Below, in pieces: positions 2,338 to 19,090 of a DNA stretch of 64,000 bases. The notes under the pieces were generated by a model, which worked only from the letters and a program-made list of their open reading frames with translations, had not been told where the DNA came from and did not search any database. Origin of the DNA: Pontibacter roseus DSM 17521. Its GTDB lineage: Bacteria; Bacteroidota; Bacteroidia; Cytophagales; Hymenobacteraceae. A program made the position numbers and the translations under genes. The stretch spans positions 1 to 64,000 of the forward strand of contig NZ_KB890761.1 of assembly GCF_000373265.1 (NCBI RefSeq). The letters are read 5' to 3'. Within the stretch, counting starts at the first letter, position 1. Each line of letters opens with the position of its first letter.

Positions 2338-5256
2338 ATGATACTTAAAACAAAACCTGCTGACACCTTCAAGGAGCGTCACAACGGCCCTGATAAGGAA
2401 CAGATGCAGGATATGCTTAAAACCATTGGGGTAGACTCATTGGACCAGCTGATTGAGGAGACCGTACCGGCCGCCATTCGACTGAAGAAGCCACTTAACC
2501 TGCCAAAGGCACTTTCTGAGAGGGATTTCCTGAAGAAGTTCGGGGAGATTGCCAGACAGAACAAGGTATATAAGTCTTACATCGGCCTGGGTTATAACGA
2601 CACCATCATGCCTCCTGTCATTCTCCGCAACATCATGGAGAACCCAGGCTGGTATACCGCCTATACGCCATACCAGGCTGAGATAGCACAAGGCCGACTG
2701 GAGGCCCTGATTAACTACCAGACCATGGTGATGGACCTGACAGGTATGGAGATTGCCAACGCCTCGTTGCTGGATGAAGGCACTGCAGCCGCCGAGGCCA
2801 TGGGCATGTTCTACGCCCAGCGCAAAGGCGCCCGCAAGAATGCCAACCGCTTCTTCGTGTCAGAGCAGGTGCTGCCGCAGACGCTGGATGTTTTGGCTTC
2901 CCGTGCCACGCCAATCGGAATTGAACTGGTGATTAGCGACCACCGCGAGGTGGATTTTTCTGACGACACACTGTTCGGTGCCCTGGTGCAGTACCCTGCC
3001 GCCGACGGTGAAGTGTTCGACTATACTGATTTTATCGCGAAGGCGCACGAGCAGGAGATGTTCGTAGCCGTTTCGGCTGATATCCTTTCGCTTACATTGC
3101 TGACGCCTCCAGGTGAGATGGGTGCCGATGCGGTAGTGGGCACGACCCAACGCTTTGGCGTGCCGATGGGCTTTGGTGGCCCGCATGCGGGTTACTTTGC
3201 TACGAAGGATGCCTTCAAGCGTGTGATTCCAGGCCGTATCATTGGTCTTTCTGTGGATGCAGAGGGGAACAGAGCTTATCGCATGGCCCTGCAGACACGT
3301 GAGCAGCACATCCGCCGAGAGAAAGCGACCTCCAACATCTGTACCGCCCAGGTACTGCTGGCAGTTATCGCCGGTATGTATGCGGTATACCACGGTCCGC
3401 GTCGCCTGAAGTACATCGGCCTGAACACCCACGCGCTGGCACAGCAACTGGAAAAAGGTTTGCAAGCATTGGGCTTTGAGCAACTGAACCAACACTACTT
3501 CGATACCCTGAAAATAGCCGTTGAAAACGCTGACCTGAAAAACGCTATCCGCACGGAGGCTGAGGCAGCGGGTATCAACTTCCGTTATTTTGAAGAGAAC
3601 CAGATTGGTATTTCGCTTCACCAGAACACTGATTTGGAAGACGTGAAGGCTGTGCTCGCGGTATTCGCGAAAGTGGCCGGCAAGTCTGGTGACGTACTAG
3701 GTATAGACGAGCTTCCGGAAGAGACGGAAATCACCTGGTCTGACAGCCTGATTCGCAAGAGCGAGTACCTCACGCACGAGGTGTTCAACAAGCACCATTC
3801 TGAACACGAGATGCTGCGCTACATGAAGCACCTCGAGAACAAAGACATCTCGCTGGTACACTCCATGATTCCGCTCGGCTCTTGTACCATGAAGCTGAAC
3901 GCGACTTCAGAGATGATTCCGGTGACCTGGCCTGAGATTGGACAGTTGCACCCATTCGCTCCCGCTGACCAGACACTGGGTTACAAGCAGATTTTTGCTG
4001 ACCTGGAGGCCTGGCTGTGCGAAATCACCCGTTTTGATGCGGTATCGCTGCAGCCGAACTCTGGTGCGCAGGGCGAGTATGCGGGTCTGATGGTAATCCG
4101 TGCCTACCACGAGTCACGTGGCGACCACCACCGGAACATCGCTCTTATCCCATCTTCTGCACACGGCACCAACCCAGCTTCTGCGGTGATGGCCGGCATG
4201 AAAGTGGTGATTGTGAAGTGCGACGAGCGCGGCAACATTGATGTGGCCGACCTGCGCGCAAAGGCAGAGCAGTATAAAAATGAATTATCTTGCCTCATGG
4301 TGACGTACCCATCCACACATGGTGTGTATGAAGAGAGCATCATCGAGATTTGCAAAGCCATCCATGAGAACGGTGGCCGTGTGTACATGGACGGTGCCAA
4401 CATGAACGCTCAGGTAGGTTTGACCTCACCAGCCCACATCGGCGCTGACGTTTGCCACCTGAACCTGCACAAGACCTTCTGTATACCTCACGGTGGCGGT
4501 GGTCCTGGCATGGGCCCTATCGGTGTGGTGAAAGACCTGGCTCCATTCCTGCCTGGCCACGCTGTTGTGGATTTAGGCCGTTCTGAGGCTATACATGCTG
4601 TTTCGGCTGCACCTTGGGGCTCTGCTTCTATCCTACCTATCTCTTATGCCTACATCGCGATGATGGGCGGTGAGGGGCTGACGGAGGCGACCAAAGTGGC
4701 TATCCTGAACGCCAACTACATCAAGGCGCGTCTGGAGCAGCACTACCCGGTATTGTATGTGGGTGCCAACGGCCGTTGCGCGCACGAGATGATTCTGGAT
4801 TGCCGCCAGTTCAAGAAAGTGGGCGTTGAGGTAGAGGACATCGCCAAGCGCTTGATGGACTATGGCTTCCATGCACCAACTGTGTCGTTCCCGGTTGCGG
4901 GCACGCTGATGGTGGAGCCTACGGAGTCAGAGGCTCAGGAAGAACTGGACAGATTCTGCGACGTGATGATTTCCATCCGTGAGGAGATTCGTGAGATTGA
5001 GGAAGGCAAAGCAGACCAGAAGGAGAACGTGCTGAAGCATGCGCCGCATACCTTGAAAGTGGTGATGACCGAAGAGTGGAGCAGACCTTACTCCCGTGAG
5101 AAGGCTGTGTTCCCGATGGCCTACCTGCGCGATAACAAGGTATGGCCAACCGTTAGCCGCATCGACAGCGCCTACGGCGACCGTAACCTGGTTTGCTCCT
5201 GCGCTCCGATAGAATCCTATAATGAGAATGGCGGTGAGATGGTAGCCATCGGCTAA
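2338..5256 (+). CDS. gcvP: Glycine dehydrogenase (decarboxylating), P protein of the glycine cleavage system
   Basis: This PLP enzyme decarboxylates glycine and passes the aminomethyl group to the lipoyl arm of GcvH. At 972 residues it is the single-chain form, with both halves (GcvPA-like and GcvPB-like) fused. The N-terminal half carries [14 protein letters not shown] and [12 protein letters not shown]. The C-terminal half has the PLP-lysine motif [15 protein letters not shown], with Lys at about residue 712, followed by GPGMGPIGV. Codon use is even and the reading frame is complete. It is monocistronic here, with a strong terminator 24 nt after the stop; gcvT and gcvH are not in the window. 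It functionally links to lipA (about 13 kb away, lipoate synthesis) and to sdaAA (serine breakdown). Confidence 0.97.
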
Positions 5257-5279
5257 CCGAATCATTGCATACATTCTAA

Positions 5280-5310
5280 AAGCCTGGCCACCCGTTGGTC
5301 AGGCTTTTTT
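5280..5310 (+). terminator. Rho-independent terminator after gcvP
   Basis: An 11-bp stem (AAGCCTGGCCA against TGGTCAGGCTT, one G-T type mismatch) with a 5-nt loop is followed directly by a T run. It starts 24 nt past the gcvP stop codon. Confidence 0.9.
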
Positions 5311-5424
5311 GTTGCTGTCAGTCTCTTGCAGTTAAATAGCCTGAGTCAAGCATACCCATGTATACAACCCTCTGTTTCTTTCAAAGCGTATACCTTAGGG
5401 TCATCCTCACAACCACGCGCAGCT

Positions 5425-6003
5425 ATGAACCATAGGTATACTCCTCCGCCTACCGCCTTAGGTATCTTATTGCTCTTCCTGATACTGTTCGGGCTTAGTA
5501 GTTGCCTTCCTTCCATCATGGCCACCAGTGACTTTGACAGAGGAGCTAATTTCCAGACCTACCGGACATTTTCCATCATTGAACCGGAGGCGGCAGGAAC
5601 CAATGCCAACCCCACAGCCTACGAACCGCTGCTGGACAGGCGCGTGCGGGACGCCGTAGCGGCTGAACTGGTGAAGAAGGGCCTGTCTCCCGATGCAGAA
5701 AGCCCAGACTTGCTAGTGGCCTACGATGTGGCTGTCGCGCCGGCGCCTAACTCGCCTGATACTGGTAGTTACAGCGCCTGGTACGGCTACCGCTATACCT
5801 ACCGCTCCACCGCGTTCCCTTCTATCAGGACGATTGATGCCTATCCGGTAGGAACTTTGGTGATTGATTTAATAGACCCAGGCACCAACGAACTGGTGTG
5901 GCGGGGGGCTGCGGAAGGGGAAATCGACGCAGGGCTGACCGAGGAAAGCAAAATCAGACGGTCCATTGCGGCTATCCTGGCGCAGTACCCACCCGGCAGG
6001 TAG
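5425..6003 (+). CDS. DUF4136-type lipoprotein
   Basis: A predicted lipoprotein of 192 residues. The start at 5425 is preferred over the first in-frame ATG at 5326, because only then does an N-terminal hydrophobic stretch (LGILLLFLILFGLSSC) read as a lipoprotein signal, with the lipobox ending LSSC. The mature part has the DUF4136 pattern: DFDRGANFQTYRTF near the start, then TAYEPLLDRRVRDAVAAEL, SPDLLVAYDV, and a final GTLVIDLIDPGTNELVWRG segment. DUF4136 proteins are envelope lipoproteins of unknown function, common in Bacteroidota. The gene ends 11 nt before the convergent TonB receptor gene, with no room for a separate terminator. Confidence 0.8.
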   Translation: MNHRYTPPPTALGILLLFLILFGLSSCLPSIMATSDFDRGANFQTYRTFSIIEPEAAGTNANPTAYEPLLDRRVRDAVAAELVKKGLSPDAESPDLLVAYDVAVAPAPNSPDTGSYSAWYGYRYTYRSTAFPSIRTIDAYPVGTLVIDLIDPGTNELVWRGAAEGEIDAGLTEESKIRRSIAAILAQYPPGR

Positions 6004-6014
6004 CCTATTCCAGC

Positions 6015-8309
6015 CTACAGTTTGTAGGACAGCGACAGTCCTCCGTAGAAATTTCGTGGAGCGGCAGGTTGAAAATAGCGTGCCCCGAAGGCGTTGAGGT
6101 CATTGCCCAGACTGTATTTCTCGTCTGTCAGGTTCTCAGCTCCGCCAAACACATTTAATTGGAACTGCTGCCCGAGCTCCCTTTTGAATCCCAGTCGGGC
6201 TCCGGCTACGACATAGGCATCGGCATAGACAGTGTTTTCATCGTTGAGCGGTATGGCATCTGCATAGTTGGCCGTCAGGTACAGGTATAGCCCAAAGCGT
6301 GTAGCCAGGTCCAGCCCGGCGGTGGCCGTGTGGGGCGCTACGCCTGTGAGTCTGTTGCCGTTCAAATCCGTGCCATCCCGCTGGTAGTCTTTAAAACGGA
6401 AGTGGCTGTAGGTATAGCTCCCCCATACCTTGAACAGACTTACGGGAAGCGCTTCATCTTGCAAGAAGGTATAGCCTACCGCAGTCTCGAGCCCACTTTG
6501 CTCCGTCGCCCCCACATTCCGGAACACAGCAATGCTGGACAGGTCCTGCCGGCTCACGATAGTTTCCCGCAGCCGGAAATGGAAAGCCACTACATCGAAG
6601 TGGAGTTTCTCATGCAGGGTATAGCCGCGTATACCTGCCTCGTAGTTAATACCCTTTTCCGCCTCCAGTTCCTGATTCAGCACACCATCCGAGGTGAGCA
6701 ACTCCTCGTCGCTCGGCGGCGAGAAGCCGGAACTGACACTGCCATGCACCGACAGCCGCTCCGACAGCCGCTTCAGCAACGCCACTCGCGGCGAAAGCAC
6801 CGCTTTGAAATCACGACTATACTGGTACGCCCCTCCACTTGCCGCCTGTCGCAGCCTAGTGATTTCATAGCGGGTGTCGTTGAGGCTCAGGGCCGCAGTG
6901 GCTATCCAGTTACTAGGCAATGTAAACTCAGCCTGCGAAAACAACAGGCCCGTTTTAGCGAGAACTTCATCGTCGGTGCGCAGGCTGTCGGGTCGGCCCA
7001 GGTTATTGTCGTAGGTGCGAGCTGCTTCGAAGCCGCGCTGGTATTCCCCTCCGAAAGTCACCGTCGTGCCCACTGCGCCCATATTGGAGGTATAGACAAA
7101 TCGGCTTCGACCGCCATACTCCTGGTTTGCATTTCGTTCGTAATCGGTGTTGAAGGGGTGGTCCCGAAACCGGAACAGGCCGTAAAGGGCGGTGGTGTTC
7201 TTCCAACTGTCACTGAACCGGTACTCCTGCGACAGTCCCATGTTCACTCCTTTTTGATTCATAGAGGCATTCTGCACCACACTGCCAAACATACCGCCGC
7301 GCGCCTGCCGTGGGTCCTGTTCGTATTGCTCCCGTGTCAGGCCTCCTGGCAGCTCGTAGTATAGGTCCGAATAAATGATGTTGGCGTTGATGGTGCTCTT
7401 GGCAGATGGGTAGAAGGAGGAGGTCAGCAGCAAAGTCTCGCGGTCCATGGCCGATTGCTCGCGGTAGCCGCCATACCTTTGCCGGGTATACTGCACCAGC
7501 AGGCTGCTTTTCTCGCTCCCCATACTGGCACTGGCCGTATAGCGTTGCAGCCCGAAGGAGCCAAAGGTGGTTCCTGCTTGCAGCACGCGCTCGCCGGGAG
7601 TCGCCCGGCGCGGTTCCAGCAGAATCGTTCCGCCTGTGCCTGCCCCATAGATGCTGCCCGTAGGCCCTTTGATGATTTCGATGCGATTGAAGTTAGCGGC
7701 ATCCAGCAGGTTCAGGTTCGTGATGCCATTGGCCTCCGTCAGGGGAATCTCGCCCAGGTATACCTTGACATTTCGGATGCCATAAGGTGAGCGCAGGCTG
7801 CTGCCTCGTATGGAGAGTCGGTAGCTGGCCGTGGCTCTTTCCTCCATGCGTACGCCAGGCACCGTGTTTACGGCACGAACCAAAGAGCTTTCATCAAAGC
7901 GCTGCAGCACCTCCGGCTCCACCACACTCAAGGCACCGGCCGTCTGCAGCAGCGGGCGGTTGCTCTCATAGCCTGTCACCACCACCTCAGCCAAATTCGC
8001 CGCTGTGGGCTGGAGTAGTACCTGCAGCTCTTCTGTTGAATTAGCTGCTGTTAAGGTTTGTGTGCTATACCCTAGATAACTGAAAGTCAATGCTACACCC
8101 TGTTGCCGTACTGTCAGCGCGAACCGGCCGCTTTCGTTTGTAATTGCCTGTTCTCCTGTGCTCGCCGTCACCGTCACTCCTTCTAATGGCAAGCGACTGC
8201 GTGCATCCAGCGTGCGGCCTTGCAGCAGTTGCTGTGCCAGCAGCTGGTAAGGCAACAGGTAGCACAGCAATGCAAGTGCTAAGAATCGAAATCGGAATGG
8301 GTTCTTCAT
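6015..8309 (-). CDS. TonB-dependent outer-membrane receptor with carboxypeptidase-regulatory-like domain
   Basis: An outer-membrane receptor, 764 residues from the ATG at 8309. Eight further in-frame residues exist upstream but weaken the signal peptide. Order of parts: signal peptide 1-26; a CarboxypepD_reg-like beta domain (about 27-105, LQGRTLDARSRLPLEGVTVT); a plug with the usual signature (VNTVPGVRMEERATASYRLS, then RIEIIKGPTGSIYGAGTGG) to about 225; and a long beta-barrel ending in GLSLSYKL. The plug form resembles siderophore or metal-complex receptors rather than SusC, being shorter than SusC and lacking an adjacent SusD. Substrate is unknown. The neighbour is a divergent PQQ-type sugar dehydrogenase, but nothing shows a functional tie. 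Confidence 0.92.
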   Translation of the reverse strand: MKNPFRFRFLALALLCYLLPYQLLAQQLLQGRTLDARSRLPLEGVTVTASTGEQAITNESGRFALTVRQQGVALTFSYLGYSTQTLTAANSTEELQVLLQPTAANLAEVVVTGYESNRPLLQTAGALSVVEPEVLQRFDESSLVRAVNTVPGVRMEERATASYRLSIRGSSLRSPYGIRNVKVYLGEIPLTEANGITNLNLLDAANFNRIEIIKGPTGSIYGAGTGGTILLEPRRATPGERVLQAGTTFGSFGLQRYTASASMGSEKSSLLVQYTRQRYGGYREQSAMDRETLLLTSSFYPSAKSTINANIIYSDLYYELPGGLTREQYEQDPRQARGGMFGSVVQNASMNQKGVNMGLSQEYRFSDSWKNTTALYGLFRFRDHPFNTDYERNANQEYGGRSRFVYTSNMGAVGTTVTFGGEYQRGFEAARTYDNNLGRPDSLRTDDEVLAKTGLLFSQAEFTLPSNWIATAALSLNDTRYEITRLRQAASGGAYQYSRDFKAVLSPRVALLKRLSERLSVHGSVSSGFSPPSDEELLTSDGVLNQELEAEKGINYEAGIRGYTLHEKLHFDVVAFHFRLRETIVSRQDLSSIAVFRNVGATEQSGLETAVGYTFLQDEALPVSLFKVWGSYTYSHFRFKDYQRDGTDLNGNRLTGVAPHTATAGLDLATRFGLYLYLTANYADAIPLNDENTVYADAYVVAGARLGFKRELGQQFQLNVFGGAENLTDEKYSLGNDLNAFGARYFQPAAPRNFYGGLSLSYKL

Positions 8310-8517
8310 AATTTGATAGGTAGCTTTTCCCAACGGTGCCGGGCACAGTAAAGTTAAGGATTAGGTCGCTATACCTTGACCGCTCAGCTCCAAGCGAAGC
8401 GCCTCCACCTGCCGTTCTGCAACAAATTGCACCATTACCTTGTAATACTTCAAACCAAGGTATAGGCTATTGGTTTGAGAACCGACAGCTGGCACACTGT
8501 ATCCTGAGAAAAAAGCT

Positions 8518-9726
8518 ATGAAAAAAAATACTCCTACCTTCCTGCTGTCTATGGCTTTGGCTGCCTGCACGGCGCCATCTCCACTTTTCGCCCAGCAAAA
8601 TCAAAAGCCTATCTCCGCTTCTGTCGAAGGCCATATTTTTAAACCGGCACAAGTGGATGCCACTGATGCCCGCGTTAAACAATTGAAAGTTCCAGCCGGC
8701 TTCCAAATCACCAAGTTCGCCGAGAACCTCAACAAGCCCCGCATGATAGCCGTCAGCAACGAGGGCGTGGTATATGTGACGGACCGTGATAAGGGCACCG
8801 TGACCATGTTGCGCGATACCAACAAAGACGGCAAAGCTGATGAACAGAAAGTAGTCGCCACCAAAGAGCACATGCACGGCATCGCGCTCCGCGACAACAA
8901 GGTATGGCTCGCCACCATCAAAGAGGTCTATACAGCCAACATCAACAAGGACGGAACGCTGTCAGAGCTGCAGATGATAATCAATGACCTCCCTGATGGC
9001 GGACAGCACCCCAATCGAACCCTCCGCATTGGCAACGACAACAAACTCTACATCTCCATTGGCAGCACCTGCAACTCCTGCGAGGAGCCTAACAAGGAGC
9101 ACGGCGCTATTCTGCAAGCTGACCTTGACGGCAAAAACCGAAAGGTATACGCAAAAGGCCTCCGCAACACGCTTGGTTTTGATTGGCACCCGCAGACCAA
9201 AGAAATGTTTGGTATGGACCACGGCATCGATTGGCTGGGTGATGACGAGCAGCGCGAAGAGCTGAATAAGATTGAAGAAGGCGCCGACTATGGCTGGCCT
9301 TACATCTACGGCGAAGGAAAGGAAAACCCCGGCGACCAGCCAAAGGACATGAGCTACGAAGCATACAAGAAGAAAACCAAGTACCCCCTCCTCACTTACG
9401 ATGCCCACAGTTCCGGTCTTGACATGAAGTTCTACAGCGGGAAGCAGTTTCCGCAAGAATACCAGGGTGATGCCTTTGTGGCCTTTCATGGGTCCTGGAA
9501 CCGGTCCAAGCCTGTTGGCTACAAAGTGGTGCGCGTCCGGTTCGAGAAGGGGCAGCCCAAGGAGTTTCAGGATTTCGTGACCGGCTTTCTGGTGGACGGC
9601 GGCAAGGCGCAGTTTGGACGCGTAGTAGGTTTGGCTACGCACACAGATGGCTCGCTGCTGGTTACCGATGACGCCAATGGTGTGGTATACCGTGTGTCGC
9701 ATACTGGCGGACAGCAGAAGAAGTAA
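8518..9726 (+). CDS. PQQ-dependent sugar dehydrogenase (sorbosone/soluble aldose dehydrogenase family)
   Basis: A secreted beta-propeller oxidoreductase of 402 residues. The first 25 residues form a signal peptide (MKKNTPTFLLSMALAACTAP...FAQ). The alternative is a lipoprotein with Cys17, but no convincing lipobox is seen. Propeller motifs include PRMIAVSNEGVVYVTDRDKGTV, HMHGIALRDNKVWLAT, GGQHPNRTLRIGNDNKLYISIGSTCNSCEE, KGLRNTLGFDWHP, and HGSWNRSKPVGYKVVRVRF. These match sorbosone dehydrogenase-type PQQ enzymes, which oxidise sugars or their aldehydes in the periplasm. PQQ synthesis genes are not in the window. The real substrate is unknown. Confidence 0.88.
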   Translation: MKKNTPTFLLSMALAACTAPSPLFAQQNQKPISASVEGHIFKPAQVDATDARVKQLKVPAGFQITKFAENLNKPRMIAVSNEGVVYVTDRDKGTVTMLRDTNKDGKADEQKVVATKEHMHGIALRDNKVWLATIKEVYTANINKDGTLSELQMIINDLPDGGQHPNRTLRIGNDNKLYISIGSTCNSCEEPNKEHGAILQADLDGKNRKVYAKGLRNTLGFDWHPQTKEMFGMDHGIDWLGDDEQREELNKIEEGADYGWPYIYGEGKENPGDQPKDMSYEAYKKKTKYPLLTYDAHSSGLDMKFYSGKQFPQEYQGDAFVAFHGSWNRSKPVGYKVVRVRFEKGQPKEFQDFVTGFLVDGGKAQFGRVVGLATHTDGSLLVTDDANGVVYRVSHTGGQQKK

Positions 9727-9754
9727 GCCCCCGCTATACCTAAAAAGTAAAAAA

Positions 9755-9776
9755 GCTCCGACAGAATCTGCGGAGC
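9755..9776. terminator. Bidirectional terminator between convergent genes
   Basis: The stem GCTCCG/CGGAGC has a 10-nt loop, an A run on the left (9746-9754) and a CTTTCC tail on the right. It lies between the plus-strand sugar dehydrogenase and the minus-strand OmpA gene and can serve both. Confidence 0.65.
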
Positions 9777-9830
9777 CTTTCCAAACTATGAAAGCTAATA
9801 AAAATCTTGAGTCTTTTTCGGTCAGAGCCC

Positions 9831-11810
9831 TTACTTGATTCGGAACTCTGTTCTTCTGTTCTGCTGGTGCAGCTCCTCAGGACACTGCACACCGTCGATA
9901 CAATCATTCACTAGCCTGGTTTTGCCGTAGCCTTTGGCCGTGAGCCTGTCACTGGCTATACCTTTGGTTATCAGATAATCCACGGCTGCCTGGGCTCTGC
10001 GCTCCGAAAGCAGCTGGTTGTATTTCAGGCTCTCGCGGCTGTCGGTGTGGGAGCTCAACTCGATTTTGACGTTCGGGTTGGCCTCCAGTATCGCCGCCAG
10101 CTTGTCCAGTTCTGTGGCGGCATCCGGGCGGATATCCCATTTGTCCAGGTCGTAGTAGATGTTCTCCAGCACGATGGCCTTGTCTTTCTCGTCCCTGTCG
10201 AACAGCAGCGCCACCTGCACGGTGTCTCCCGCTGTGGTTGGCACGTTCACAGTCGTGTTCTGGTTCAGGTAGCCTTGCTTGGTACCAAGGAAGGTATAGG
10301 AATTTCCTTTGCGGCCATCCATGAAATACTGCCCCCTCCTATTTGTCATAACCGTAGACGTGTCGTTTAGGTTCTTTTGGGATATAACTAACTGCACCTG
10401 CGGCAGAATTACCTGTACGTTTTTCTTCTGCTCATTCTGCTTGCGCTCCAATGTCGTCACGGCCAAAACCACTGGTTTCTGCAGCATTTTGAAGCTATAG
10501 ATGTCGTCTGTCCCATCGTTCGCGTCACGGTTAGAGGACAGAAGACCAGTCTCTCCTTCCCCATCGAACATGATGCCGTAGTCATTCTTAGGGGAATTGA
10601 TAGGATAGCCCATATTCTTCACAGCCGTCCAGGCGGCGTGCTTGCCCTCGGTTGTGAAAATGTCCAGGCCACCCATACCGCTGTGTCCGTCAGAAGCGAA
10701 ATGCAGTTTGCCAGCATTGTCGATGTAGGGGAAGCTCTCACGACCAGTGGTGTTGATGAGGATTCCGGCATTGACAGGCTCTCCCCAGCTGCCATCCTGC
10801 TGGCGCAACGAGTAGTAGATATCCGTCTCGCCTATACCTCCTGGCATATCCGATGCAAAATACATGATTTTGCCATCCGGTGACAGGGCGGGGTGCCCTA
10901 CTGAGTACTCTTCCACGTTATTATAGGCGAAAGGCTTAATATCAGACCAAGTGGCGCCTCGCTTCTGAGCCGTGTAAATCTCCAGTCGGTTGATGTATTC
11001 TGTAGCCTGATTCGGGTTTGCTATCCAACTGGTGGGGTCGGTGTTTCCGGTGTTGCGCTTCTGCACCAGTTTAGTTCTGGTGAAGTAGAGCGCCTGACCG
11101 TCTTCCGTAGCAGAAGCCGTCGCGTTGTGGTACTCCCCGTTAATCATCTCGTGCATGGCGGTTGGCGCGCCCCAGTTGCCCTTGCTGTCGCGGCTGGCCG
11201 TGAACAGCTGCAGGTATGGCCGGCCTGTCCAACCGTAGGTGCCGGCTGCTTTGCCGCCTGCGTTGGTGCCACGGTCTGACGTGAAGATGATGCCCTGCCC
11301 GTAGTTCATGGGGCTGAAGTCAGAAAATCCTTTGGCACTCAGGCCACTTAGGTGCTCTACCTCCGCCACGGGCAGCTGTTTCATCCAGCTCACGGCCTTG
11401 TCACAGGCTTCCATCAGCATCTGCGCACGTTCTTCCATCTCCGGCATCTCCTCGCCCCACTTCATGTACTGCTCCTTAGCCGGTTCATACTTTCCGTTGC
11501 TGCGCAATGCCTCAGCGAAGTGGTATACATTCATCGGGTCACGGCCTGGCATCGCAACTACCTGTCCGTACCACTTCTCCGCCTCGGCAGAGCGCCTGGT
11601 CAGACGGTAAGAAGTGGCGATACGCTCCGTGGTCACCACATCGGGCATGCGTTTCTCGGAGGCTTTCTGGTATTGCTCCAGCGCCAGCGAGAACTCATAT
11701 TTCTCGAAATGTTTGTTCGCTTTGCGAAGCTCCTGCTGCGCCTGGGCGGCAGGGGCTACACCTAGCATGAAGCTTACTACAAGGTATAAGGGTATGTATT
11801 TATAGTTCAT
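9831..11810 (-). CDS. OmpA-family protein with TPR-like and PD40 repeats (PorE-like, T9SS partner)
   Basis: An outer-membrane/periplasmic protein of 659 residues. In order: signal peptide (1-24); TPR-like helices (about 25-135, KANKHFEKYEFSLALEQYQKA); a PD40/WD40-like beta-propeller (about 155-430, with GHPALSPDGKIMYFASDMPGG and KLHFASDGHSGMGGLDIF); a carboxypeptidase-regulatory-like domain (about 455-535); and a C-terminal OmpA peptidoglycan-binding domain (about 545-659, NIYYDLDKWDIRPDAA, SHTDSRES, NRRTEFRIK). This domain order equals that of the PorE-type proteins found next to porP/sprF. Here it is the last gene of a three-gene set with a PorP-like protein and a giant CHU_C protein. It probably anchors the surface complex to peptidoglycan (inferred from context). 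Confidence 0.88.
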   Translation of the reverse strand: MNYKYIPLYLVVSFMLGVAPAAQAQQELRKANKHFEKYEFSLALEQYQKASEKRMPDVVTTERIATSYRLTRRSAEAEKWYGQVVAMPGRDPMNVYHFAEALRSNGKYEPAKEQYMKWGEEMPEMEERAQMLMEACDKAVSWMKQLPVAEVEHLSGLSAKGFSDFSPMNYGQGIIFTSDRGTNAGGKAAGTYGWTGRPYLQLFTASRDSKGNWGAPTAMHEMINGEYHNATASATEDGQALYFTRTKLVQKRNTGNTDPTSWIANPNQATEYINRLEIYTAQKRGATWSDIKPFAYNNVEEYSVGHPALSPDGKIMYFASDMPGGIGETDIYYSLRQQDGSWGEPVNAGILINTTGRESFPYIDNAGKLHFASDGHSGMGGLDIFTTEGKHAAWTAVKNMGYPINSPKNDYGIMFDGEGETGLLSSNRDANDGTDDIYSFKMLQKPVVLAVTTLERKQNEQKKNVQVILPQVQLVISQKNLNDTSTVMTNRRGQYFMDGRKGNSYTFLGTKQGYLNQNTTVNVPTTAGDTVQVALLFDRDEKDKAIVLENIYYDLDKWDIRPDAATELDKLAAILEANPNVKIELSSHTDSRESLKYNQLLSERRAQAAVDYLITKGIASDRLTAKGYGKTRLVNDCIDGVQCPEELHQQNRRTEFRIK

Positions 11811-11829
11811 ATGCGGTAAAAGCTAAGGA

Positions 11830-12765
11830 TTAAAAGTATTGAGGCGTCAACATTTTCGTATCCTGCTTCTTGAAGAAGTAGTAACCCACTGAAATCTCGT
11901 GCGAATGGAAGCCGTTCAGGTCGTTCAGCATCTTGTCGTAAGAATAACCCAGGCGCAGTGCGTTGGTCACCTGCAGTTGTGCAATCAACGCCAGGGCCGT
12001 GCGCTTGTTCACTTCCAGCTCCTCCTGGTTTTTGTTGAAGATGGGGGCACTGGTACGGTAGGAGGTTCCTAGCCACAGCTTGTCGCCCAGTAGCACAAAG
12101 CCGTTCAGGTCAATGTTGGCTGGCGCATGGAAGTCTTCTTTTACCAGGATGCTCGGCTTGAGCTTCACAAAGCTGCTCACGTCGAACACATAGCCGGTTG
12201 TGAAATAGTAATGGCGCTTGGGTTCTATCTGCAGAATATCCTTGTACTGTATCAGGTCAGAGGCGGAGAGACCAGCGTAGAAGCGTGGCGTGTGGAAGTA
12301 CATGCCCAGCTTCACGTCCGGGCGGTAAGTCACTTCTTTGCCGCTCGGTATGCTCGGGTCATCCGGCACGCCCAGTTCGGTTCCATCCATCACGTTCTGC
12401 ACGATACCGGCAGCCACACCCAGGCTCAGCACGCCATGCTCGCTCACCGAAATCCGGGTGGCTGCATTGGCATAGGCCGACAGCGTGGAGTAGGCACCGA
12501 TTTTGTCGCGGGTGATGTTCAGACCCAGTCCCAGCCTATCGTGTGCGGGAATCCCATCCACGCTCAGCGCCTGTGTGGTAGGGGCTCCTTCCAGGCCCGT
12601 CCACTGGGAACGGTGGAACGCGTTGATGTTAAGCACACCTTTGGTACCGGTATAAGCCGGGTTGATGGCCATACTGTTGAAGATGTACTGTGAGTACTGC
12701 GGGTTTTGCTGGGCACTAGCCGCAAATGTGAGCAATAGGGCCAGCAGGGTATAAAGTATTCTCAT
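11830..12765 (-). CDS. PorP/SprF family type IX secretion system membrane protein
   Basis: An outer-membrane beta-barrel of the PorP/SprF family, 311 residues from the ATG at 12765. The frame runs 11 codons further up, but only this start gives a clean signal peptide (MRILYTLLALLLTFAASAQ). The hallmark N-terminus, QNPQYSQYIFNSMAINPAYTGTKGVLNINAFHRSQWTG, is present; the family is shaped like this throughout. PorP/SprF proteins work with the T9SS, and paralogues next to giant CHU_C-tailed proteins are thought to be dedicated partners for export or surface attachment. It sits 19 nt upstream of the OmpA gene and 35 nt downstream of the giant gene, so the three are probably one operon. Confidence 0.93.
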   Translation of the reverse strand: MRILYTLLALLLTFAASAQQNPQYSQYIFNSMAINPAYTGTKGVLNINAFHRSQWTGLEGAPTTQALSVDGIPAHDRLGLGLNITRDKIGAYSTLSAYANAATRISVSEHGVLSLGVAAGIVQNVMDGTELGVPDDPSIPSGKEVTYRPDVKLGMYFHTPRFYAGLSASDLIQYKDILQIEPKRHYYFTTGYVFDVSSFVKLKPSILVKEDFHAPANIDLNGFVLLGDKLWLGTSYRTSAPIFNKNQEELEVNKRTALALIAQLQVTNALRLGYSYDKMLNDLNGFHSHEISVGYYFFKKQDTKMLTPQYF

Positions 12766-12800
12766 TGTAAAAAAGTTATTCAGATATTTTGCTGTCACTC

Positions 12801-15800
12801 TTAGCGGAAGATGGCCACGTATCCGGAGTATTCCTTGTACACACCATCACACAGTTTCACCCTTACCTTATAGAAGTAAGTACCCTGCTCCAGGCCTCTG
12901 CCCATCCAGTCATTCTTGTAAGCGCGCTGCTTGTACACCTCAGAGCCCCAGCGGTTGAATATCACCACCTCGTTGTCCGGAAACTTGAGCAGATTCGGAA
13001 TAGTCCAGTTGTCGTTCTTGCCGTCGCCGTTCGGGCTGAAGGCTTTCGGGAATTCAAGCTGGCCGTCTGCCAGAGTAGCGTCTATTGGGGCGCTTGCTTC
13101 TACTGAGCTGGCGCAGTCGCCGTTGTTGGCGGTTACGGTCACCTGCCCGGTTGCCTTCGGAGAGTCAGCCTTCACAGTGACAGTGGCAGTACCCTGACCT
13201 GCCACAATGGTGAAGCCAGGCGACACAGACCAGGTATAGGAGGTGGCGCCTTCCACAGCGTCTGCCGTGAATACAAGTCCGTCGCACACGTTGCTTCTGT
13301 CGGTTATGCGGCCTACCGCTGCCGGAGGTATCGTGATGTCGATGTTGCGGGTAGAGGCTGGGCTGGTACCGCAGTCATTCGAGGCTGTCACACTCACGGC
13401 ACCGCCTGTTGCAGTGGCGGTCACTGTGATGTTGTTAGTGCCTTGTCCGCCTGTAATGACCCAACCTGCAGGCACTGTCCAGGTATAAGATGTGGCGCCT
13501 GGCACAGCTGCTACGCTCAACACGTTGCCTGCACTGCTGATACAAACATCCGATACATTGGTGATAGCACCTGGTGTTTCCGGAGCAAGCGTAGGCGCTA
13601 CCGCCAGAACAGCTTCAGAGCCTGCACCACATCGGTTGTTCACGGCTGCTCTGATTTCACCTGCTCCCGCACCCACTCGTACGCGGATGCTGGTGCCTGT
13701 CGCGCTGCCTATCAGGGTCCAGGTGGCCGGCACCTTCCAGGTATAGCCTGCCGCACCGGCTACTGCATCAATGCTGTAGGTCAGTTCTGTGCCGATACAG
13801 GCCGTAGTGTTTCCTGTGATGGCTACTGGCGCATCCAGCGTGTTGGTCACGGCTACGGCACGGCTGGCTTTGCTGCTGGCGCCGCAAGCATTAGAAGCAG
13901 ATACTTCCACGCTTCCAGAGGTCGTTCCGATTTTAACACGGACCTGCGCTGTACCTTGGCCGCTCAGGATTTCCCATCCCCCTGTAGCAGGAACTGTCCA
14001 GTTGTAAGTCACGCCTGAAACTGCTGTCACGGAGTAAGTTGCTTCCACACCGGCGCACAGGTCATTGTTACCAGAGATGGCCACAGGCACGGCAGGTATG
14101 GTAGAGACATTGATAGTCGTTGTTCTCTCTTCGCTAGTTCCGCACTCATTAGAGGCCTTCACTTTTACAGTACCGCCTGTTGCGTTGCTTGATACGGTGA
14201 TGCTTGTTGTGCCCTGGCCCGCTGTGATTTCCCATCCGGTAGGCACCGTCCAGGTATAGCTGGTGGCACCTGGCACGGCTGTTATGCTGAATACGTTGCC
14301 CTGGCTCATGGAGCAGACTGCTTCCGGGCTGTTGATGGCGCCTGGCCGTGCTGGTATCGTGGCAGGCGTGATAGCCAGGCTTGCCTGAGCACTCGCGCCA
14401 CAGGCATTTGCGGCTGCTACTTTCAATGTTCCCGGGGTGCTGCCTACCACTATAGTAATGGTGTTGGTGGTACGGCTTCCTTTCACGGCCCATCCTGTCG
14501 GTATGTCCCAGGTATAGCCGGTGGCTCCTTCTATTGCGTTGGTAGTGTAGGTCACTTCTGTGCCCGCACATGGTGTGGTCAGGCCACTGATAGCGGCTGG
14601 CGCGGCTGGCACATCTGATACACTCACTGCACGGCTAGCCTTGCTGCTGATGCCACAGGCGTTACCCGCTACTACCTCCACGTTACCTGAACCCGTCCCA
14701 AATCTCACTCGAACCTGCGCAGTGCCTTGGCCACTTACTATCTCCCATCCGGCCGGAACCGTCCAGGTATAGGTTATGCCTGCAGTTGCTGCCACGGAGT
14801 AGGTCGTTTCTGTTCCTGCACACACAGCGGCACTGCCCGAGATGCTGACAGGCGCTGCCGGAATAGTAACTACGGTCGCAGTAAAGGTTCTTGGTGCGCT
14901 GTTGCCACAGGCATTGGAGGCTATTACACTCACAGTACCGCCCGTTGTTCCGGCTGTCACTACAATGCGGGTCGTGCCCTGTCCTTCTGTTATGGTCCAG
15001 CCTGCCGGCACATCCCAGGTATAGCCAGTGGTACCCGGTACCGCATCAATGGAGTAGACATTGCCCGTGCTTGTACCACATACGCCTGCTGTTGGACCAG
15101 TGATGGCTCCGGGAGTTTCTGGCTTCTTGTTTGGATTGATTTCCAAGGTCGCCTGTTCGCCTGTGAAGCATTTGTTTTTCACGGCGGCTTTGATGGTCAC
15201 GGTGCTGGTGCTCGTACCTACTTTCACACGAATGGTGTTACCGGTGTTGTCACCGATAAAGGACCAGCTGGAAGGCAGTGTCCATACATAGCCTGTCGCA
15301 CCTTCTACTGCTGCTACAGAGTATTCCTGCTCTGAGCCGATACAAGGGGTTGTCTCTCCTGATATCGCTGCAGGGGCAGCCGGTGCGTTGGTCACCGTCA
15401 CAGCCAAGGATGCAGCTGCACTGCTGGTGCAGGCGTTGTTCGCCGTCACACTTATAGTACCACCGGTTGTTCCGGCTACTACCGTCACCTGGTTCGTGTT
15501 AGTGGCTGTGTTCTGCGCGAATTCCCATCCGGCAGGAAGTGTCCAGGTATAGCTGGTGGCTCCCGTGATGGCAGCGGTCCTGAAGGTCATCTGCTTGCCT
15601 GCACATACTTCTATGTCACCTATAATAGACACTGGAGCAACAGGCGCTGGTGTCACAACTATCACTTTGGTGGCGATGCTCTCGAGACCACAGTTGTTCG
15701 TCACTTTCAACGATACTATGCCCCCTGACAGGCTTCCGCCTTTTGCTTTCACTACCACACTGGCTCCTGTGTTTCCACCTACAATTTCCAGGTTCTCGTC

Positions 15801-17699
15801 AACTGACCAGGTATAGGCAAGGCCTTCGGCTACGCCTGTCGCTGTGAAGGTCACGCCTTCGGTGTTGAAGCAGAGGGACGCACCGCCCGTAATCACAGGC
15901 ACAACCGGCAATCCAGTCACCTGCACATTCAACTCAGCGGTTACTTTGTTCTTGCATTGGTCAGTCACTGTTACCTTAATGACTTTGGCTCCTCCTGCAG
16001 GGCCTACGTTCACTTTGATAGTATTGCCCGCTTGCGGCTCAGCCAGCGTCCAACCCAATGGCAGTGTAAAGGCATAGGTAGCTCCTATGACTGGCGTCAC
16101 GGTGAAAGTCTGCTGCGTATTAGCACAGATTGTTGTTTCACCCGTGATGGCCGCTGTCAAAGTAGGGCATTTCACATCAGGAATCACCACGACATCCTTG
16201 TCGTTGTCAGGGTCCGCGTCTGTGTACCCCCCATCGCCTGGGTCAGTCGGGTTATTCGGGTCCTCTGGGTTGTTTGGATTATCCGGGTTATTTGGGTCAT
16301 CCGGGTTATTCGGATTGTCAGGATTATTCGGGTTGTCTGGATTTTTATCGCGGTCGATGAGGAAGGCGATGTTCTCTATTCTTCCTGCTTTCACCAGCTT
16401 AGCAGTGATAGTTAGAGTCGCAGATGATTTGCCTGCAATAGACGGGATGTAGAAAAGGCCTGTTTCAGGATTATAAGTGGCACCTGCACTAGCCTCATAG
16501 CTCACAAATTCCAATCCCTGTGGCAGTTTTTCCCTTACTTTCACATTTCTCTCAGTTCCTTCGCCCTTGTTGTTAACTGTGACGCTATACTGCACGTTCT
16601 GACCCACAACGTAAGTAGGTCCGCCGTTCACTGTTTTGTCTATAGCTAAATCAGGCAGTTTGATAGTTACCTCGTCCTCGTCCTCGTCCGGAGACGGGTC
16701 CGGATTTTCACCAATGATGACGACTCTGTTGCGGATGTTCCCGGTACTTATGATGCGGAAGGTCAATCTGAGTGTCTCAACCTCTCCTACTGCCAGGTTT
16801 CCTACCAGCCACTGGTTCGTGTTGGTGTTGTACGTGCCCTTGGTTGCAGACTCCACTCTTACAAACTGCAGCCCTGCCGGAATGTCCTCCTTCACGACAA
16901 CACCCGTTGCGTTGTCTGGCCCTAGGTTGGTCGCTCTGATGGTATAGGTAACGAATGAGCCCAGGTTATACTCCTTCTCCTCGGCTTCCTTCTGCACACT
17001 TAGGTTCGCGATGACGATATTGGGCATGAAAACCAAGTTCGCTTCCAGGTTCACCTCACCTGCAAGCGATATGGCACGACCAATCATCACGCCGCCGCCG
17101 CCAATCTTAATGGAATTCTGTGCGATGACAGTACCTTGGAAAAGACTGGTCTTGCCTGTATCCACGCTGCCCCTCACTATCCAGTACACATTTTTGGGCT
17201 GTGCACCATTAATCAGGTTGATGTAGGTCTTGTCTGTATTGGAATTCAGGTTGCCATCAATGATGATGACAAAGGTAGCGTCCGGATTACCTTGCCCGTC
17301 CAGTGTCAGGCCTTCTCGCAGCGTAGCATTGCCGCTGATTTTGTACACCCCGGCGAACAGTTTCTGGTAGTTACCAAGAATGGAGGAAAACAGGGGGGTA
17401 GGATTCGGGTAATTGAGCAGACTGTTATATAGGCTTTGTGCATCCTCAAGCGCCTGGGCAGCAATAGGAGTACCGATTTCCTTGTCACCGTCGACTTTCA
17501 ACACGCCTGTGTCTACAACAGGGGTCCCTGATACAACGCCCAGGTCTCCGTACACGTCCGTGGCTCCTTGGTTCGTGACACGCGAAGCCGCCAAGATGGC
17601 GTAGTCCTCTGCGCTGTTCAGGTTCAGGTCTGGCTGTCCGTAGGTAAGGGTGGTGCTGACAGTCAGGAAGAGAAAGACTAGCAGTAAAATTCTACTCAT
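12801..17699 (-). CDS. Giant T9SS-exported protein with DUF3494 ice-binding-like head, DUF11 and 12 PKD-like repeats, CHU_C tail
   Basis: A secreted multidomain protein of 1632 residues. Signal peptide 1-22. Residues about 24-228 match the DUF3494/ice-binding protein family (SAEDYAILAASRVTNQG, DVYGDLGV, GVYKISGNATL, ATFVIIIDGNL, NVYWIVRGSVD, GTVIAQNSIKIGGG, MIGRAISLAGEVNL). DUF11 domains lie at about 232-346 and 350-450. A Pro/Asn/Asp-rich linker spans about 453-500. Twelve PKD/Ig-like repeats of 84-89 residues follow, about 510-1544, each with a YTW core. Residues 1547-1632 form a CHU_C (type B T9SS sorting) domain: FPKAFSPNGDGKNDNW, FNRWGSEVY, GTYFYKV. Known ice-binding members of DUF3494 are beta-solenoids, but many members are untested. 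I infer a surface-displayed stalk and head, exported with the downstream PorP-like partner. Confidence 0.9.
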   Translation of the reverse strand: MSRILLLVFLFLTVSTTLTYGQPDLNLNSAEDYAILAASRVTNQGATDVYGDLGVVSGTPVVDTGVLKVDGDKEIGTPIAAQALEDAQSLYNSLLNYPNPTPLFSSILGNYQKLFAGVYKISGNATLREGLTLDGQGNPDATFVIIIDGNLNSNTDKTYINLINGAQPKNVYWIVRGSVDTGKTSLFQGTVIAQNSIKIGGGGVMIGRAISLAGEVNLEANLVFMPNIVIANLSVQKEAEEKEYNLGSFVTYTIRATNLGPDNATGVVVKEDIPAGLQFVRVESATKGTYNTNTNQWLVGNLAVGEVETLRLTFRIISTGNIRNRVVIIGENPDPSPDEDEDEVTIKLPDLAIDKTVNGGPTYVVGQNVQYSVTVNNKGEGTERNVKVREKLPQGLEFVSYEASAGATYNPETGLFYIPSIAGKSSATLTITAKLVKAGRIENIAFLIDRDKNPDNPNNPDNPNNPDDPNNPDNPNNPEDPNNPTDPGDGGYTDADPDNDKDVVVIPDVKCPTLTAAITGETTICANTQQTFTVTPVIGATYAFTLPLGWTLAEPQAGNTIKVNVGPAGGAKVIKVTVTDQCKNKVTAELNVQVTGLPVVPVITGGASLCFNTEGVTFTATGVAEGLAYTWSVDENLEIVGGNTGASVVVKAKGGSLSGGIVSLKVTNNCGLESIATKVIVVTPAPVAPVSIIGDIEVCAGKQMTFRTAAITGATSYTWTLPAGWEFAQNTATNTNQVTVVAGTTGGTISVTANNACTSSAAASLAVTVTNAPAAPAAISGETTPCIGSEQEYSVAAVEGATGYVWTLPSSWSFIGDNTGNTIRVKVGTSTSTVTIKAAVKNKCFTGEQATLEINPNKKPETPGAITGPTAGVCGTSTGNVYSIDAVPGTTGYTWDVPAGWTITEGQGTTRIVVTAGTTGGTVSVIASNACGNSAPRTFTATVVTIPAAPVSISGSAAVCAGTETTYSVAATAGITYTWTVPAGWEIVSGQGTAQVRVRFGTGSGNVEVVAGNACGISSKASRAVSVSDVPAAPAAISGLTTPCAGTEVTYTTNAIEGATGYTWDIPTGWAVKGSRTTNTITIVVGSTPGTLKVAAANACGASAQASLAITPATIPARPGAINSPEAVCSMSQGNVFSITAVPGATSYTWTVPTGWEITAGQGTTSITVSSNATGGTVKVKASNECGTSEERTTTINVSTIPAVPVAISGNNDLCAGVEATYSVTAVSGVTYNWTVPATGGWEILSGQGTAQVRVKIGTTSGSVEVSASNACGASSKASRAVAVTNTLDAPVAITGNTTACIGTELTYSIDAVAGAAGYTWKVPATWTLIGSATGTSIRVRVGAGAGEIRAAVNNRCGAGSEAVLAVAPTLAPETPGAITNVSDVCISSAGNVLSVAAVPGATSYTWTVPAGWVITGGQGTNNITVTATATGGAVSVTASNDCGTSPASTRNIDITIPPAAVGRITDRSNVCDGLVFTADAVEGATSYTWSVSPGFTIVAGQGTATVTVKADSPKATGQVTVTANNGDCASSVEASAPIDATLADGQLEFPKAFSPNGDGKNDNWTIPNLLKFPDNEVVIFNRWGSEVYKQRAYKNDWMGRGLEQGTYFYKVRVKLCDGVYKEYSGYVAIFR
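13326..15383 (-). repeat. Three-domain higher-order repeat within the PKD array
   Basis: PKD-like repeats 4-11 (residues 773-1458) follow an A-B-C, A-B-C, A-B order. A repeats (4, 7, 10) open like PAAISGETTPC. B repeats (5, 8, 11) open PGAI and contain GNV. C repeats (6, 9) open PVSISG or PVAISG with TYTW or TYNW. The unit is about 257 residues (about 770 bp). This points to growth by duplication of a three-domain block, not of single domains. Confidence 0.75.
16239..16343 (-). repeat. Short repeats coding a Pro/Asn/Asp linker
   Basis: A low-complexity stretch codes for repeated NPDNPNN-like units between the DUF11 domains and the PKD array (residues about 453-487). It probably acts as a flexible, acidic spacer. 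The tandem DNA units could vary in number between strains by slippage. Confidence 0.8.
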
Positions 17700-18091
17700 A
17701 TAGATAATTTGAAATAAAATATTATAATGGTCATAAATATAGACATATTATCATATACTTTTTATATCTGCTGTTACTAATTTTTTTTAGCTTAGTTTAA
17801 TCCGATATAAAAAATGCAATATAAAATCAAGAATAGGATGTTATAACGCCGATAGAGTTATACTATTCCTACACACCTGCTCCTAAACTTTTTTTTATTC
17901 TCCCTAAAGTTCAGTCCAAGAGAGTAGCAGACACACTTAAATCAAAATTCACATTAGTATATTTGAATATGTTAATCTATTTATATAGTTATTGCGTTTC
18001 AGTGCTTTCTCTTCAGCTAATGTTATATTTGATAAGTCAATATTAACGGGCTGCAAAGGTAGAATTTAAAAGCAGAGTATTTGAAACCAGT
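17700..18091. other. AT-rich intergenic region upstream of the giant T9SS gene
   Basis: About 390 bp of AT-rich DNA without a credible gene separates the giant gene from the lipA terminator. At 18061-18054 the minus strand has TACCTTTG, a good -7 box. No TTG lies at the usual 19-bp distance, but a TTTG lies further up. If used, it would give a leader of about 350 nt for the giant gene. I see no other clear element here. Confidence 0.5.
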
Positions 18092-18139
18092 GCAAAAAAA
18101 AAGTGGGTCATTGCTATAGTTTTGATAGCAATGACCCAC
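18092..18139 (-). terminator. Rho-independent terminator after lipA
   Basis: A perfect 15-bp stem (GTGGGTCATTGCTAT at 18103-18117 with its complement at 18125-18139) and a 7-nt loop are followed on the minus strand by nine T residues. It begins 40 nt after the lipA stop. Confidence 0.95.
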
Positions 18140-18178
18140 AAACCTTCCAAAACAAAATTCAGAAAGTTCTAAGAAAGT

Positions 18179-19090
18179 TTATACATGCACATGTCGTTCA
18201 GCATGGTAGGAGGAGCGGACTAATGGACCTGACTCTACATACTTGATACCTCGTCTCAAACCCTCTTCACGGTAGTGGTCAAACAGGTCGGGGTGAATGA
18301 ACTCCGCCACCTCGATGTGCAGCTTGGTCGGCTGCAGGTACTGCCCCAGCGTTAGGATGTCGCAGCCGTTGGCCGCCAGGTCATCCATCGCCTGGTATAC
18401 CTGCTCCCTTGTCTCGCCCAGCCCCAGCATGATACCGGTCTTGGTGCGCTTGCCATACTCCTTGGTGCGGCGAATCTGCTCTAGGCTGCGCTCGTACTTG
18501 GCCTGCGGGCGCACGCGGCGGTATAACTCCTTCACGGTCTCCATGTTGTGTGACACCACCTCTTGGCCTGCCGAAATCATGGTAATCAAGGCATCCCAGT
18601 TGGCTTTCACGTCAGGTATGAGCGTTTCGATGGTGGTAGCAGGAGAAAGTTGTTTTACCAGGGCCACTGTCTCATGCCAGATGGCGGCACCCCGGTCCTT
18701 CAGCTCATCGCGGTTCACGGAGGTGATAACGGCATGCTTTACGCCCATCAGTTGAATGGCCTCTGCCACACGGCGGGGCTCATCGGTATCATACTCGTTG
18801 GGGCGGCCCGTGGCTACTGCACAGAACGAGCAGCTGCGGGTGCACACGTTTCCCAATATCATGAAAGTAGCCGTACCAGCTCCCCAGCACTCGCCCATGT
18901 TCGGGCAGTTTCCACTCTCACAGATGGTATGCAGCTTATATTCGTCTACTATGCTTCTTACCTTCGCGTACTCTTTCCCCACCGGTAGCTTCACGCGCAG
19001 CCAGTTTGGCTTGCGAGGCTGTCCCAGCGCGTTCAGCCCCTCGGGCGTCGCATTGGGTTGTATAACCGGAAGTGTCAATAGTTCATCCAT
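18179..19090 (-). CDS. lipA: Lipoyl synthase
   Basis: A radical-SAM enzyme that inserts two sulfurs into protein-bound octanoyl groups, making the lipoyl cofactor of GcvH and the 2-oxoacid dehydrogenase E2 proteins. The 303-residue length is normal. The auxiliary cluster cysteines are C57, C62 and C68 ([12 protein letters not shown]), the radical-SAM cysteines C83, C87 and C90 (CTRSCSFC), and the C-terminal RSSYHAE holds the conserved serine ligand. The start is the only ATG near the family N-terminus. A TATCTTTG -7-like box lies at 19102-19095, only a few bases before the ATG, so a very short leader is possible. Clients encoded nearby are gcvP's partner system and the fused E1 at 21453-23432. 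Confidence 0.97.

Follow-up and report, generated by a model that had tools for sequence, protein, structure and literature searches.

The closest described counterparts of the locus studied here are PG1035-PorP-PorE of P. gingivalis and SprB-SprF and Fjoh_3952-Fjoh_3951 of F. johnsoniae, in which the cargo protein carries a CHU_C/TIGR04131 tail and the shuttle is encoded directly downstream (PMC9143113, PMC12618676). According to PMC9143113, a Porphyromonas type B protein forms a complex with PorP and PorE, and non-mobile type B proteins are proposed to be tied to the wall via PorP-PorE-like complexes. The same source gives the layout of PorE as TPR, beta-propeller, carboxypeptidase-regulatory and OmpA domains, and places a porE-like gene next to the shuttle for six porP-like genes of F. 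johnsoniae, the arrangement also found here. Exchange of the cargo head is not described for these systems in the available text of PMC9143113 and PMC12618676. In a survey of fibrillar adhesins (PMC8286594), Ice_binding is listed as an adhesive domain, PF19403-PF19408 as stalk families and CHU_C as an anchor, and Ice_binding is taken to bind ice. The Ice_binding family, DUF3494, is usually treated as an ice-binding domain, and its genes are routinely annotated so. Earlier work has already proposed roles other than ice binding for DUF3494 as well as its transfer, and the domain is described as often passed between taxa (PMC12337378).

In the window (the whole 64,000-nt stretch of Pontibacter roseus DSM 17521 DNA that was analysed), a cargo gene of this general kind is followed by two candidate partner genes. 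Compared with the PG1035, SprB and Fjoh_3952 systems, its product differs in having a DUF3494 head and 12 PKD_6 domains. The features of the locus are as follows.

12801..17699, minus strand: fibrillar adhesin, predicted type IX type B substrate (ORF list, Pfam, NCBIfam)
17634..17699, minus strand: signal peptide region (residues 1-22), assigned by eye from the sequence; conservation extends to the left edge of the exchanged segment
17010..17633, minus strand: DUF3494 head, residues 23-230, a beta-solenoid with the ice-binding-protein fold; the exchanged module (Pfam, predicted structure)
16350..17003, minus strand: two DUF11 domains, residues 233 to ~450 (Pfam)
16239..16343, minus strand: Asn/Pro/Asp-rich linker, residues ~453-487 (sequence)
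13080..16163, minus strand: stalk of 12 PKD_6 (PF19408) domains, approximate bounds (Pfam)
12804..13064, minus strand: CHU_C / TIGR04131 type B sorting and anchoring domain, residues 1546-1632 (Pfam, NCBIfam)
11830..12765, minus strand: PorP/SprF-like protein, putative shuttle and anchor in the outer membrane, 311 aa if started at the ATG, with an alternative GTG start at 12798 (ORF list, Pfam, NCBIfam)
9831..11810, minus strand: PorE-like periplasmic protein, 659 aa, presumed peptidoglycan link (Pfam, NCBIfam)
18179..19090, minus strand: lipoyl synthase gene lipA, a flanking landmark outside the system (TIGR00510, 348.4 bits against 310.25)

The initial annotation of this locus had read the 1632-aa adhesin (ORF 12801-17699 in the window's ORF list) as a DUF3494 domain, a DUF11 pair, an Asn/Pro linker, 12 PKD repeats and a type B CHU_C tail, and the Pfam and NCBIfam searches confirmed this architecture. 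Ice_binding PF11999 matched residues 35-223 (127 bits, cut-off 28.7), CHU_C matched residues 1549-1630, and TIGR04131 scored 48.2 bits against a cut-off of 35. The spacings given in that annotation also held: the likely ATG of the PorP/SprF-like gene, at 12765, lies 35 nt past the adhesin stop (the ORF list instead opens this gene at GTG 12798), and the PorE-like gene begins 19 nt beyond it. The shuttle candidate was well above threshold (TIGR03519, 254.6 bits against 90.55). The label of the third gene proved softer than it had been written. The OmpA and PD40 domains of the 659-aa protein were above the Pfam cut-offs; its TPR-like and carboxypeptidase-regulatory matches were weak (E 0.011 and 0.0033, below cut-offs), and it missed the curated NCBIfam cut-offs of both T9SS_PorE (406 versus 600 bits) and CHU_0125_OmpA (482 versus 620 bits). 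Moreover, in contrast to known PorE, no lipoprotein-signal Cys was seen when its N-terminal 30 residues were read by eye. An inverted repeat followed by a T run, terminator-like by eye, was observed at 18090-18140 (minus strand) between lipA and the adhesin operon; the operon therefore probably has its own promoter.

The genome encodes the SprA translocon (2430 bits) and GldK, together with seven type B tails over the cut-off and seven PorP-family genes. With its TIGR04131 tail, a PorP/SprF gene downstream and SprA in the same genome, the window adhesin is placed among type IX type B substrates, and its Ice_binding, PKD_6 and CHU_C anchor domains fit both the definition and the domain classes of fibrillar adhesins in PMC8286594. 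By analogy with these homologues (PMC9143113, PMC12618676, PMC8286594), the earlier proposal of a type IX-exported protein, anchored to the cell by dedicated partners and displaying its N-terminal head on a stalk, is well supported. The roles assigned to the partners are likewise those of homologues: the long protein would leave the cell by the type IX system, its own PorP/SprF-like shuttle would collect it through the type B CHU_C tail and keep it in the outer membrane, and the PorE-like OmpA protein would brace the assembly to the cell wall. The PKD and DUF11 stalk would then hold the DUF3494 solenoid out from the cell, so that the trio would be a fixed wall-braced adhesin and not a gliding one. 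The locus is best read as encoding a fibrillar adhesin that is braced to the wall, carries exchangeable heads and probably serves on surfaces other than ice. That the three genes form one such device, with heads exchanged as cassettes and a tip that most likely binds something variable and not ice, is given a probability of about 0.68.

The distribution of the trio was examined in relatives. PF11999 was found in 60 of the 99 genomes searched (own genome included): in all 49 same-genus relatives, in 8 of 11 from the same family and in 2 of 38 from the same order. When the stretches around 100 of the 122 PF11999 matches listed (relatives plus the second copy of the own genome) were examined, the same three-gene order was present in 92. 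The order of adhesin, PorP and PorE genes is thus not due to chance. The other eight stretches comprised five short DUF3494 proteins lacking the partner genes and three loci of a single genome (G053). A change of domain order among relatives had been named beforehand as a possible refutation of the initial annotation; the order was conserved, with varying numbers of DUF11 and PKD domains (1 to 27 PKD matches per adhesin over all trio loci). Two adhesins of the second locus, L089 (3193 aa) and L090 (3182 aa), have 27-28 PKD matches.

Class A was defined as the trios in which the PorE-like protein reaches 800 bits or more when scored against that of the window. A class A trio is present, one per genome, in the window and in 48 of the 49 genus relatives. 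The 49th (G002) has a lipA-linked trio, L055, with lipA 353 nt away and a PorE-like protein of 669 bits, below the class A cut. Taken together, all 50 Pontibacter genomes carry the trio, 49 of them beside lipA. A lipA homologue was found upstream on the same strand in 48 of the 49 class A loci (at no more than 500 nt in 43), and none was found in the stretch examined for L194. The lipA-linked trio was also found at five loci in two other genera of the family. All 50 loci in the genus carry DUF3494, and no other type of head was seen there. In the family members G052, G057 and G058, which lack PF11999, and in G053, the best PorE match had 35-36% identity, and neither an adhesin nor a PorP match was present in the stretch examined. 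A tandem second trio was observed in another genus of the family (L226 5156-12044, genome G055); its 1304-aa protein has DUF11, 12 PKD_6 and CHU_C domains and no DUF3494, and its first 64 residues matched no Pfam family.

The genus that carries this core trio is mostly mesophilic. Growth optima of 25-35 C are given in the tables of PMC12281811, and strain 172403-2, which has the trio (L103), is described there as non-motile and as growing from 10 to 37 C, best at 30 C. The non-motility of this one strain fits the model of a fixed adhesin. The survey's assumption that Ice_binding binds ice (PMC8286594) contrasts with a head that is core in such a genus and, as shown below, exchanged.

Conservation of the trio does not extend to the head. 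In class A, 104 of 1176 locus pairs had PorE-like proteins at least 80% identical; head identity in these was below 50% in 33 pairs, 50-70% in 9 and at least 70% in 62, the pairs not being independent and 32 of the 33 low-head pairs involving one of L187, L038, L056 and L188. When L187 was compared with L181, identity was 94% for PorE, 95% for PorP, 95% for CHU_C and 47% for the head. DNA similarity in this pair ran to nt 88 of the ORF (84.5%), was lost, and returned at nt 943 for 10.9 kb (82.1%); protein blocks showed 31-60% identity over residues 21-320 and 65-100% in the later blocks examined. In other pairs, the left border fell within nt 57-93 and the right one in the region of the DUF11 or PKD domains. 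For the window and L067 (PorE 81%, head 33-34%), homology ended at nt 71 of the ORF and resumed at nt 1873 at 66%, which delimits the following segment.

15827..17628, minus strand: segment without DNA similarity to the near relative L067, the exchanged cassette in that comparison (DNA comparison)

The reverse relation was found as well, in that heads were more alike than the PorE-like proteins between the window and L056 (69-70% versus 63%) and between L065 and L189 (81% versus 66%).

Quick trees of the PorE-like proteins and of the heads grouped the loci differently. In the PorE tree, the window, L038 and L067 fell together with nine others, and L056 and L059 with seven others. In the head tree, the window grouped with L038, L056 and L044, and a second group joined L067 and L059 to fifteen others, so that both head groups (window/L038/L056 and L067/L059) are found in both PorE clades. 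Warnings were raised that long branches meet elsewhere in the head tree (L038 and three others with L062 and three others; L053 with L063), and L175 and L198 were flagged there for odd composition. In AU tests, with groups named after the trees had been seen, the head data rejected PorE clades X (dlnL 132, p 7e-7) and Y (dlnL 128, p 7e-43), and the PorE data rejected head clades with dlnL 588, 480, 470 and 36 (p 0.003 for 36). A lipA tree, weak but independent and departing from the PorE tree for some other rows, also placed the window, L038 and L067 together (SH-aLRT 93) and L056 in a set with L059 (85).

These data show a mosaic: the locus stays beside lipA and its tail, shuttle and brace are inherited together, while the head, often with part of the stalk, is swapped as a cassette between relatives. 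The exchanged unit opens just past the signal peptide, so that an incoming head would keep the resident export signal, stalk base and tail, and homologous recombination in the conserved flanks would be the simplest route. Because the locus, tail, shuttle and brace stay constant and the head is replaced, the head is most likely an adhesin tip for a variable target and not for ice: this may be a polysaccharide, a mineral or organic surface, or other cells. Each part of this arrangement is already known. Searches of open-access PMC returned no paper on DUF3494 with T9SS or on Pontibacter with ice binding; among the papers listed by broader searches, none on head exchange of such proteins was seen, nor did any of these searches turn up DUF3494 serving as the swappable head of a type IX adhesin.

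When heads were clustered by single linkage at 50%, the 49 loci fell into 12 families, for which 11 changes are the minimum and 16 were counted on the PorE tree; at 60% linkage there were 19 families, with 20 changes counted and a minimum of 18. The count at 50%, and the pattern of a conserved anchor with a variable exposed tip, would also be expected if heads vary as kin markers or to evade recognition by adsorbing phages or grazing protists, diversity itself being selected and ligand specificity secondary. We regard this explanation as rather unlikely: the DUF3494 family is kept at all these loci, and variability at the outward positions of the face does not exceed that of the head as a whole (entropy 1.84 versus an average of 1.79).

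The initial annotation had also taken the head for an ice-binding domain and had called for structure prediction. The window head is over the PF11999 gathering cut-off and is a predicted beta-solenoid, which places it in DUF3494. AlphaFold2 (77 sequences, a set that included the window and left out L143 and the tblastn matches with a stop L150, L160 and L162; another set had 50 sequences) gave a pLDDT of 96.1 and a pTM of 0.93. When this model was compared with 25 solved DUF3494 entries by Foldseek and VIA-align, Z was 29.3-33.8 with an rmsd of 1.4-1.9 over 198-205 residues. The predicted head thus resembles the ice-binding beta-solenoids. The next structural match was ComZ of Thermus (Z 13.6, rmsd 3.4, 188 residues). 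A head of the other main group, that of L109 (33% identity to the window head), was modelled with a pLDDT of 88.8 and gave Z 27.3-31.5, 13.4 for ComZ and the same leading matches; the predicted fold thus survives head exchange. ComZ is a related solenoid at the tip of the Thermus pilus, and its authors noted the likeness to the ice-binding fold, DNA binding by the protein and the lack of obvious conservation of ice-binding residues (PMC6561018). It thus has a solenoid at the tip of a surface fibre, as the window adhesin would, and a ligand other than ice; unlike the window adhesin, it is a pilin with an inserted solenoid and has neither a PKD stalk nor a type IX tail, and the likeness is one of structure.

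EfcIBP, AnpIBP, FfIBP, IBPv and SfIBP_1 share the fold and the sequence family of the window head, and its face was compared with theirs. Using the AnpIBP B-face segments (PMC7277481) as template, six face strands were read in the window head (SRVTNQ, GNATLR, GNLNSN, GSVDTG, NSIKIG and GEVNLE), with columns 1, 2, 4 and 6 outward. Two checks confirmed the register: residues of the inward-facing column 3 were 98-100% hydrophobic in all sets, and column 2 of EfcIBP read S, S, T, S, S, A, matching its description in PMC12337378. A short separate DUF3494 protein (L004-L014 in genus relatives; L035, L054, L084 and L085), which occurs patchily in 11 of the 49 genus relatives, was included, with one from the order, as a set of twelve. 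In columns 1/2/4, the charged share was 0.22 in the window (R, D, K and E) and 0.25 in the 48 other class A heads, whereas the seven known ice-active domains averaged 0.06 and the twelve short proteins had 0.05. The small-residue share was 0.50 and 0.48 versus 0.75 and 0.78, respectively. Class A differed from the known set in both measures (Mann-Whitney p 1-2e-4, the sequences being related and not independent), and one of the 48 class A heads reached the range of the known set, SfIBP_1 excluded. SfIBP_1 (6bg8), a solved DUF3494 ice-binding protein, equals the window face (charged 0.22, small 0.50). Since class A domains are more charged overall (0.15 versus 0.09 in the known set), part of the charge difference is not face-specific.

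Column 2, which is tied to ice habitats in PMC12337378, differed in the same direction. In class A it was A/S/T/G at 0.18 and charged at 0.50, versus 0.77 and 0.09 in six known domains, and in class A with the window it was D or N in 157 of 294 places. A Shewanella SfIBP is described as having only alanine in column 2 (PMC12337378); under our mapping column 2 of 6bg8 is not all alanine, so the SfIBP meant there could be a different one, or the two column assignments could disagree. For class A heads as a group, the face comparison leans against ice.

The possibility of an ice-binding head that tethers the cell, in the manner of MpIBP in Marinomonas, was weighed against these data. In its favour are the DUF3494 membership and fold (Z 29-34 to 25 solved entries) and the face composition that SfIBP_1 shares with the window head. 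Several Pontibacter strains grow from 4 C (tables of PMC12281811; PMC4511580), P. arcticus is among the records and soils freeze; contact with ice is therefore possible. In addition, DUF3494 proteins that carry adhesion domains have been reported, 85% of which came from interior sea ice, and have been suggested as biofilm anchors to ice (PMC9957290). Against it stand the charged outward columns and polar or charged column 2 of the class A heads, the core status of the trio in a mostly mesophilic genus, and the clean small-residue face that is found instead in the separate, patchy short protein. Moreover, closely related species swap heads of about 30-48% identity, which would not be expected if the target were as constant as ice. 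Ice binding by the head, as initially annotated, is thus not supported and appears improbable; it keeps a small probability, since the face of SfIBP_1 is as charged as that of the window head. In comparison with DUF3494 ice-binding proteins, the window head appears to lack their flat small-residue face, would sit on a stalk with export partners, and is exchanged inside a resident gene. In addition, MpIBP uses type I secretion, a route different from the type IX one predicted for the window adhesin. RTX repeats were absent from the window adhesin among Pfam matches with E of 0.1 or better, its tail being CHU_C. MpIBP resembles it in having a long stalk with a distal domain (ice-binding in MpIBP), and differs in not being DUF3494 and in its C-terminal RTX repeats in place of CHU_C (PMC5014055).

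A reading without exchange, by fast head evolution at the locus or by old alleles sorting differently among lineages, would agree with heads diverging more than PorP or PorE in most close pairs listed, and very fast local evolution could mimic part of this divergence, but it is very improbable given the abrupt stop and return of similarity at sharp borders, the window/L056 and L065/L189 heads that are more alike than their PorE-like proteins, and the mutual rejection of head and PorE groupings in the AU tests.

The wall-braced adhesin with exchangeable heads also bears on the domain itself. We consider it an even bet that DUF3494 here acts as a general variable recognition scaffold, about a dozen head families of which would be traded between species as cassettes at one Pontibacter locus, the anchor, stalk base and export partners staying in place, so that near-identical bacteria would show different tips. 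The Asp/Asn-rich column 2 would suit a mineral, calcium-bridged or polysaccharide surface. If this is true, many ice-binding annotations of DUF3494 proteins would be wrong in function, a natural series of near-isogenic head swaps would be at hand for learning what the fold can bind, and module exchange would be extended to type IX type B adhesins, a class whose ligands are largely unknown.

The own genome carries one paralogous trio ~154 kb away. In this second trio (L032, C1:160000-176500, at 4802-16464), the adhesin has 1397 aa and 11 PKD matches and is accompanied by its own PorP and PorE genes; just upstream on the same strand, a 1004-aa Ig_7/CHU_C protein was observed paired with a PorP gene. 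PF11999 matched only these two trios in the own genome, which thus has neither a short DUF3494 protein nor silent head cassettes detectable with this profile. Gene conversion from the class B paralogue was considered as well and left no sign, the best head identity between class A and class B being 47%, to the lipA-linked L055, which is class B by score cut only. Four of the 11 short DUF3494 proteins of the genus were scanned and had Big_5 domains without CHU_C, at 467-579 aa. The class B set, that of the second locus, consists of 44 loci, including six that are lipA-linked (L055, L071, L073, L075, L080 and L082), or 38 without them. Among its close pairs, head identity was below 50% in 1 of 31 and below 60% in 10 of 31; in L058 and L208, for example, identity was 95% for PorE and 55% for the head. 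Class B heads vary too, less sharply than those of class A.
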